Assembly (NCBI RefSeq): GCF_022201045.2
Contig: NC_068561.1
Coordinates: 17,114,501-17,178,500 of the forward strand
Reading direction: 5' to 3'
From: Citrus sinensis
Lineage: Eukaryota > Streptophyta > Magnoliopsida > Sapindales > Rutaceae
DNA: 64,000 nt
Part shown: positions 29,751-31,837 of the stretch, in pieces
How the letters are laid out: each line of letters starts with the position of its first letter
Numbering within the stretch: the first letter of the stretch is position 1
Notes under the pieces: generated by a model
Told to the model about the DNA's origin: nothing
What the model saw: only the letters and a program-made list of their open reading frames with translations
The model's database searches: none
Translations under genes and position numbers: made by a program

Positions 29751-30365
29751 GGGTAATTTTTAAAAACCTCCCCTGAGGTTTGGGCTTGTTGCAAGTAGAT
29801 GGCGAGAATTGATTTATTTGTAAAAAACCCCCTACCGTCAGTTAAGTTTAACATTGACCGTTAGTTGACCGTGCAAAGACAATATTACCCTTAACAATAG
29901 TTTGTAAACGAAAATAACTAAAAAAAAACCAAAATTATTGGTGCAAAAAGCACAAACCCTATTTTTTGATAATTTTATCCTTGTTAATTCTAAAAATTTA
30001 CAATATCATAGTTAAAGATTATGACTATTTCATTTTTAAATTTTTAATTTTATCTTTCTTGTAGGAATTTTAAGGAAATATCAATAATTTAAAGAGGATT
30101 TTTTAATTTTTTAATTTTAACTTTTTTATAGAAACTTTAAGAAAATATCAATAATTTAAAAAGTGTAAAATAGCTAATAATTTTGATTTTTTTTTTAGTT
30201 ATTTTCGTTTATAAACTATTGTTAAGGGTAATATTGTCTTTGCACGGTCAACTAACGGTCAATGTTAAACTTAACTGACGGTAGGGGGTTTTTTACAAAT
30301 AAATCAATTCTCGCTATCTACTTGCAACAAGCCCAAACATCAGGGGAGGTTTTTAAAAATTACCC
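29751..30365. mobile_element. Mutator-like MITE with ~190-bp terminal inverted repeats (E1)
   Basis: The termini are gggtaatttttaaaaacctc and its inverse. The arms 29751-29940 and about 30175-30365 differ at only a few positions. A 10-bp repeat attgttataa stands on both sides (29741-29750 and 30366-30375). Long TIRs with a 9-11 bp duplication are typical of Mutator-like elements. The 230-bp core is AT-rich and non-coding. It abuts the related element E2. Confidence 0.88.
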
Positions 30366-30376
30366 ATTGTTATAAA

Positions 30377-31827
30377 GGGTAATTTTCAAAAACTTCCCCT
30401 GAGGTTTGAGGCTGTTGCAAGTAGATGGCCAAGATTATTTTATTTGTAAAAAAGCACATGCCATCAGTTAAATTTTCTGTTGACTGGTAGTTGACTTAGA
30501 AAAGACTATATTATCCCTAGTGACAGTGCACTGAGATCCTTTGCAACTCTCTTCAGTCAACTAGCAAGAAGTTGAGATTAAAATAGCAAAAATTGTGTGC
30601 TGCCACCCGTACAACCCTCTAAAACATCATTTTCCAGGTCAAGATCACTAAAGTACAGTACACCAGTTTCATTTCTATGCTTGATAGTTCTCGCAGGAGA
30701 AGTCCTACCACTTAAATGGATCAACGAATCAACACACGAAGAAGATGAAACACCATCCTGCTGATAATCATCTTCCCCAAGCAGTAAGCAAGAAGATTCA
30801 GATGATTCATTCGAAAACAGAAATTCCATATGATGACCATATTTTTCTGATGGAGAAAACTGCTGAGCTGGAGCATATTTTTCAACCACCAAAGACACTC
30901 CAGGAGAATCTATTAAATTAGAATTTATCTGGGATAAAGCACCATAAGAGCAAGTTGTTGTGGAGCCATCGGCTTGAATCATAGAATTGCAGTCTGAATC
31001 ATCAACAGACTCTTCAGAGCATGTATCAAACTTTTTGTTAGAGGCCGCAACAGAGTTTTTCTACAAAGGATGATGTAAAATGTCAGAAACGCAATGAAGC
31101 AGATTCACCAGGAAAACAAAAATAAAATCTCTTACAACCAATCTTAGATGTTGAACTCAAAAATAGTCGTTCCCTTAAAGCAGACGCCAAAAGAAGGAAA
31201 AAAAAAAAAACTTCTTCGATTTAAGGAAAAAGCTAAAACTCTTTACCTTCTTGAGATCTGCCGTTAAAACTCGGTCTGAGTTGAGATTAGCATTACTCAA
31301 AAATCTGCGTTGCGACTGCTCCAACCTTCTCCGAATGCATCCAACATTATCTGTAGGCATAGCAACCGTACAAGTGACCTTATCAAAATCTGGAACCTGT
31401 GACAAAACTTGTCAGTACTCAGCTTGTATTTCAAATTGACTAGAGAACAATCTTCGTATGTAGTGATGCATGTGTAAGAATACATGCTTCTGAGGCAAAT
31501 GGACAGAGTGATCATACAAATCTTACATTTAATTGCCTTGACCTTGCTTTCTTTGAAAGGGATCGTATACACATACACGACTCAGAAAACGCCGTCCATT
31601 TTTGCTATTTTAATCTCAACTTCATGAGATGTTTGCTAGTTGACTGACTGAAGAGAGTTGCAAAGGATCTCAGTACACTGTCACTAGGGATAATATAGTC
31701 TTTTCAAAGTCAACTACCAGTCAACAGAAAATTTAACTGACGACAGGGAGCTTTTTACAAATAAAACAATCTTGGCCATCTACTTGCAACAGCCTCAAAC
31801 TTCTGGGGAGGTTTTTAAAAATTACCC
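30377..31827. mobile_element. Pack-MULE-like element carrying a captured gene fragment (E2)
   Basis: The TIRs 30377-30592 and 31598-31827 are roughly 90 percent alike by eye. Their outer tips match those of E1 (gggtaattt...cctcccc). The target duplication is attgttataa on the left and atgttataa at 31828-31836. No transposase is present. The interior of about 1 kb (30593-31597) has higher coding complexity on the minus strand, with two in-frame exons split by a GT-AG intron. That is the hallmark of gene capture by Mutator-like elements. Confidence 0.82.
30578..31396 (-). pseudogene. Captured host-gene fragment inside Pack-MULE E2
   Basis: Exon A is 31396-31247, preceded by a tcacag acceptor and followed by a gtaaagag donor. 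It encodes 50 residues beginning VPDFDKVTCTVAMPTDNVGC. Exon B starts at 31060 after ttgtag and encodes 160 residues in the same phase, with Ser/Asp-rich text such as SCLLLGEDDYQQDG and YFSDLDLENDVLEG. The last residues (QFLLF) and the stop come from the terminal repeat itself, so the frame is a host-TIR chimera. There is no convincing start: the 5' exon or exons of the parent gene seem to be missing, or only a non-coding part lies upstream. I do not recognise the parent gene. Whether the fragment is transcribed is unknown. Confidence 0.6.
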
Positions 31828-31837
31828 ATGTTATAAA

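Follow-up and report, generated by a model that had tools for sequence, protein, structure and literature searches.

A Pack-MULE-type element of Citrus sinensis carrying pieces of two host genes and a probable by-product reading frame

The 64,000-nucleotide stretch of Citrus sinensis DNA analyzed here (the window) contains at 30377..31827 an element of 1451 bp that is, with high confidence, best explained as a young non-autonomous Pack-MULE, which captured the leader of a BPS1/DUF241 gene, later captured a piece of a second host gene and then transposed, the 226-aa frame that it carries being an unconstrained by-product. Pack-MULEs are non-autonomous Mutator-like elements with captured gene fragments, present in maize, rice, Arabidopsis and tomato, and their terminal inverted repeats (TIRs) typically measure 100-500 bp.

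A piece of a C7 gene between two inverted arms

The element has the ends GGGTAATTTTCA...TAAAAATTACCC and is bounded by 10-bp target-site duplications, TTGTTATAAA at 30367..30376 and ATGTTATAAA at 31828..31837, which differ by one mismatch. The left inverted arm (30377..30592, plus strand) and the right inverted arm (31591..31827, minus strand, as aligned to the left one) are 216 and 237 bp long, respectively, and they show 14 differences at 216 aligned sites, with 21 gap columns; the outer ~154 bp of the left arm are common to the small members of the TIR family considered below. The interval between the arms (30593-31584) holds only a piece of a gene from C7 and 7 bp of filler, so the element has no transposase of its own. 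Directly to the left of the element lies a 615-bp small family member (29751-30365) with the exact duplication ATTGTTATAA, and because the left duplication of the element overlaps the right copy of the duplication of this small member, both inserted in the same target within one base.

A search of the genome (299.7 Mb, 11 contigs) with positions 30578-31396 found three places, i.e. the window itself, C3 and C7. When the whole element was used as the query, the C7 match was limited to window positions 30593-31577, TIRs excluded, and a base-level alignment agreed on these limits. This match (985 query bases, E 0, 98%) exceeds chance, and the captured piece, C7:6255858-6256840, corresponds to 30593..31577 on the minus strand. 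The search of the same genome for an intact parent, a check set beforehand by the original prediction, thus located that parent on C7, copied at 97.8% identity over 985 columns, and the outcome named there as refuting, a genome lacking any parent, did not arise.

The parent was modeled on the minus strand of C7, with exons 1-6 at C7:6259065-6254673 and exon 7 from 6254581 down. Exon 1 begins at an ATG, exons 2-6 follow an AG, a GT stands after all six, and exon 7 likewise follows an AG; once joined, the exons give an open frame of 821 codons before a first stop is reached in the sequence read, with the end of exon 7 still provisional. The first 252 residues of the parent, used as a protein query against the genome, matched 10 stretches out of 13 candidates. 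Exons 1-6 account for six of these at C7, one apiece, and the elements on C6, i.e. that of the window, and C3 have two apiece (exons 5 and 6); no further place in the same genome was matched by these residues. Taken together, the protein matches and the alignment limits place the parent at C7 and indicate that the element carries, all on the minus strand, the end of exon 4 (31527..31577, with an in-frame ATG at 31574-31572), the complete exon 5 (31247..31396, 150 nt) and the start of exon 6 (30593..31060, cut by the left junction), with both introns. Both window junctions cut parent exons; at the left one a single T is assignable to either side, and the right one is occupied by the filler (31578..31584), seven bases that match neither side.

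The match on C3 to the whole-element query runs nearly end to end (18-1474 of 1481), and this second copy has the same capture and junctions and an exact 10-bp target duplication of its own. The C7 parent and the C3 copy with its own duplication therefore identify 30377-31827 as a mobile non-autonomous Pack-MULE-type element. That a TIR transposon had captured exons of a resident gene, as originally proposed, is borne out by the parent, the mapped junctions and the second mobile copy, all of which, like the target duplications, are observed directly. The parent and the second copy also rule out the opposite explanation, in which a resident gene of the window would be flanked by coincidental repeats: the C7 parent has further exons on both sides, the window junctions interrupt exons, and the second copy lies on C3 within its own target-site duplication, which makes such a resident gene extremely improbable.

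With respect to the identity of the parent, the joined N-terminal 208 aa matched no family in Pfam, and their comparison with solved calponin-homology (CH) domains gave weak matches, the best with an E value of 0.00013 (rng2), followed by Gas2 and calponin-2. These solved-structure matches, which are the sole ground for the assignment, weakly suggest that the parent N terminus may be CH-like. Because the element contains no more of exon 4 than its final 17 residues, most of this CH-like part is missing from it. Two other candidates were discarded: 8xMP, obtained for a 130-aa frame around exon 3 alone, stayed below the Pfam cut-off (15.8 versus 30 bits), and PAN_3, obtained with the chimera, was also under the cut-off (E 0.0055, 17.0 versus 21.1 bits) and was taken as chance. 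The 130-aa frame around exon 3 had no match under E 0.27 among solved structures, and a comparison of the chimera with viral contigs, a scan of little use for a plant gene, confirmed no relative. As a separate observation, a stretch from L057, another element of the family, also matches the C7 locus (149 columns, 75.8%, L024 4394-4542) outside the parent exons, and it was set aside as a repeat.

The TIR family and the captured BPS1 leader

The outer part of the arms belongs to an abundant family. The two arms gave 80 BLAST hits to 20 small members, which are mostly of ~614 bp, and none of the hits extended beyond position 154; a larger member, L056, matches the arm to position 168. A 31-nt pattern of the TIR end (up to 3 mismatches) occurs at 514 forward and 519 reverse sites, with 0 + 0 in the control. 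Since the pattern of the inner TIR of the window element occurs at 10 sites (control 0), the branch of the family to which it belongs is small. Target-site duplications were examined in 24 elements: the window element, the small member beside it, the elements on C3 and C1, and the 20 closely spaced inverted pairs present in the first 100 end sites of the list. L073 and L075, two of these elements, share identical flanks and do not count as independent. The duplications were exact at 10 bp in 19 elements, had one mismatch in 4 (the window and C1 elements among them) and were exact at 9 bp in 1, and a control with swapped flanks, for which the ends of two elements were used as first placed, before correction, gave a mean of 0.96/24 within one mismatch.

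Other members of the family carry host sequences as well. Six further 9.9-kb regions were chosen from the better TIR matches and hence are not a random sample; an autonomous partner was sought in them, and they yielded elements that carry gene pieces. An element with the same ends, L054 (3776-5168), contains the N-terminal portion of a gene resembling exocyst Sec15 (Pfam E 1.7e-50), and L057 and L058 contain an internal BPS1 piece; as these two are 93.7% alike, they are copies of one capture. L053, L055 and L056, again with the same ends, are 84-90% alike and carry a piece of an At5g48480-like glyoxalase gene, although the glyoxalase Pfam family, searched with the frames of L055 and L056 only, was matched by L055 (E 9e-19) and stayed under the cut-off for L056. 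Judged from these sequences, the family has taken up host genes several times. The MULE transposase family PF10551 is present in at least 150 places of the genome (150 of 899 candidates scored), no PF10551 place was linked to these TIRs, and no transposase was recognized by eye among the frames longer than 150 aa in the six 9.9-kb regions. As neither an autonomous partner nor a transposase bearing these TIRs was encountered, the assignment of the element to its superfamily rests on the target-site duplication and the TIR length.

Inside the family TIR, the arms of the window element contain sequence from another host gene. Positions 30570-30592 (plus strand) are identical to the 23 nt that immediately precede the start codon of a BPS1/DUF241 frame on C5, an open frame of 296 codons with a Pfam E value of 1.7e-51, and the chimeric frame reads this leader antisense. 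In the right arm, 31585..31624 (minus strand) corresponds to the BPS1 leader, the start codon and the first codons, with 90% identity to the donor over 41 columns. The 23-mer of the leader, searched throughout the genome with up to 2 mismatches, occurs in six places, all of them exact (reversed control, 0). One of the six is the C5 gene, four are arms of the C6 and C3 elements, two in each, and the last is a single arm of the C1 element. When 121 nt from the inner part of the right arm served as the query, the elements were recovered and the C5 gene was not.

The C1 element keeps more of the first donor. It aligns with the BPS1 gene over 317 columns (96.8% identity), leader included, and then with a PPR-DYW gene over 695 columns (96.7%), the BPS1 part being a 5' part and the PPR-DYW part an antisense 3' part (L027 1754-3126); the other arm of the C1 element is without the leader. 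The C1 and window elements have the same TIR/leader junction and the same form of the leader, one A shorter than that of C5. This common junction and leader form, together with the nesting of the C7 piece between the arms, suggest that BPS1 was captured earlier than the C7 piece.

Two further observations concern the same region. A 31-nt stretch separates the family TIR from the BPS1 leader at window positions 30535-30565 and in an inverted copy; with up to 3 mismatches it was found in four places, all within the C1, C3 and C6 elements, the right arm of the window element being absent from the four because of a 4-base insertion. In addition, the BPS1 pieces of L057/L058 (donor L045 1760-2062) and of the C1 element (2054-2370) are neighbors on the donor, overlapping by 9 bp, which gives the appearance of a split at a single point.

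A sequence of events can be proposed from these data. An ancestor with family TIRs of ~150-165 bp would have taken up the leader of the C5 BPS1/DUF241 gene, and the leader would have come to occupy both arms in the lineage of the window element. Later, a 985-bp genomic piece of C7, comprising part of exon 4, an intron, exon 5, an intron and part of exon 6, would have been copied between the arms, presumably by template switching or gap filling. The finished element would then have moved at least once, giving rise to the C6 (window) and C3 copies, whose target duplications differ, probably mobilized by a MULE transposase supplied in trans.

The joined frame and its pattern of change

The original prediction described two minus-strand exons with GT-AG signals that keep one phase and run into the terminal repeat, and the sequence confirms them: exons 31396-31247 (150 nt) and 31060-30578 (483 nt including the stop) are in one phase with GT...AG introns, and their join encodes 210 residues. 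A third, partial exon had been overlooked, since the exon 4 piece (31577-31527) is in the same phase as the two downstream exons and extends the frame, from its in-frame ATG, to 226 aa.

The tail of the frame, originally described as five codons and a stop supplied by TIR sequence, needs correction on both points. The parent match reaches 30593, and therefore the Gln codon at 30595-30593 is parental and the foreign tail consists of four codons and the stop (FLLF*; 30578..30592, minus strand), whose bases come from outside the parent. These bases sit in the inverted arm, yet outside the part common to the small family members, and the DNA of FLLF* is instead the antisense of the BPS1 leader, a host sequence present in both arms that would be the older capture. 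The idea that the chimeric tail represents a special event was rejected, because an exon that has been truncated always continues to whatever stop comes next, which here follows after four codons, and a chimeric tail is thus no more than expected by chance. On the minus-strand transcript predicted to start in the right arm, two short frames stand upstream of the long one, MKLRLK* (31605..31625) and MDGVF* (31582..31599), the latter starting at the captured BPS1 start codon, and they would disfavor translation of the 226 aa.

The captured pieces of the window and C3 copies show 13 differences at 982 aligned sites, with 3 gap columns, and they differ from the parent at 20/983 and 25/982 sites, respectively. 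When the parent serves as the outgroup, 6 nonsynonymous and 4 synonymous changes (519 and 150 sites) fall on the element branches; the nonsynonymous share, 6/10, compares with an expected 0.78 (p 0.17 for fewer than expected), and changed sites number 10/669 in exons versus 3/313 in introns (p 0.77). Counted by hand, C>T or G>A accounts for 10 of the 13 changes (p 0.008 in a post hoc test that assumes 0.4), an excess as expected for a methylated transposon, from which we infer a link to methylation. A random change in the frame creates a stop in about 4.5-4.8% of cases, and a neutral copy is still open after 8-10 changes with a probability of 0.61-0.69. Neutral copies mostly stay open, and therefore the open frame in both copies is no evidence for function.

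The differences from the parent that are common to both copies are rarer in exons (6/669) than in introns (10/313). Five of the six exonic ones change an amino acid and one, at 30890, is synonymous on its own; its codon has a second change in the window copy. The lower number in exons would fit constraint, which, the comparison being without an outgroup, could lie on the parent branch or on the element branch. Altogether, no selection on the frame appears from these alignments, the numbers being small and the ten exonic changes leaving room for weak constraint.

These data bear on the possibility that the element is a functional new gene, in which a TIR-driven transcript would be spliced and translated into the 226-aa chimeric protein. 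Both copies do keep intact splice signals and an open frame, the 6/10 nonsynonymous share lies, not significantly, below the expected one, and PMC4858842 describes some Oryza MULE-derived putative genes as expressed and a small proportion as constrained. Such a gene is nevertheless very unlikely here, because the openness is expected from the youth of the copies, the rate of change in exons is not below that in introns, the CH-like part is almost entirely absent, as is everything past the first part of exon 6, the two upstream ATG frames come first, and the changes are predominantly of the C>T or G>A type. We likewise strongly doubt that a composite transcript from the right arm, with the BPS1 leader and start codon, the exons of the second gene and a C terminus from the antisense leader, is transcribed and under selection. 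The suggestion of the original prediction that the frame may expose an unannotated gene or a new chimeric transcript is, accordingly, unsupported by the sequence comparisons, neutral copies being expected to stay open and constraint not being seen.

A somewhat less improbable, though still unlikely, alternative is an action at the RNA level, in which transcripts of the element or small RNAs would target the C7 parent and perhaps BPS1 too. The identity to the parent along the whole captured piece and the long inverted arms would favor such an action, and Pack-MULE small RNA is named in PMC4858842; the sequence gives no pointer to it beyond the identity. A young element with an unconstrained by-product frame is thus our preferred explanation.

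Implications and comparison with known systems

The element offers a readable history of capture in two steps, with two donors, mapped junctions, two mobile copies and, on C1, a sister that retains more of the first donor, and it illustrates that inverted arms are able to absorb host sequence. It also serves as a warning that, in a young Pack-MULE, a frame which is open and looks spliced does not amount to evidence for a gene. The copying of gene fragments by such elements is already known, and a useful protein made from the piece would seem to be unsupported in this case.

The hallmarks of Pack-MULEs given in PMC3310237 and PMC4858842 are long TIRs, 9-11 bp duplications, the absence of a transposase and captured gene pieces. 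The window element resembles them in its long TIRs, its 10-bp target-site duplication, an intron-bearing gene fragment with the parent elsewhere and the absence of a transposase. Multi-donor chimeras such as this one are also known from PMC3310237 and PMC4858842, the latter stating for Oryza that 5-10% of MULE-derived putative genes draw on at least two donors and that a small proportion is constrained. Unlike Pack-MULEs as described there, the window element has an older host leader in both arms that ends the frame, a feature not met within a narrow look at the literature.

Among Mutator MITEs of Citrus, DTM63 is, according to PMC6466647, similarly small and non-autonomous, with a 9-10 bp target-site duplication and no autonomous partner found, and it differs in its average size of ~150 bp from the small members of the present family, with their ~614 bp.

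Animal Pack-TIRs and the Drosophila Ssk-FB4 element, as presented in PMC8277862, share with the window element the occurrence of several copies with one capture and different target-site duplications, as well as short overlaps at the junctions; in contrast to the window element, Ssk-FB4 is from an animal and has peptide and selection evidence. For the short breakpoint overlaps of animal Pack-TIRs, PMC8277862 puts forward gap filling or, alternatively, fork switching with a subsequent transposition, and by analogy both models would fit the junctions of the window element.
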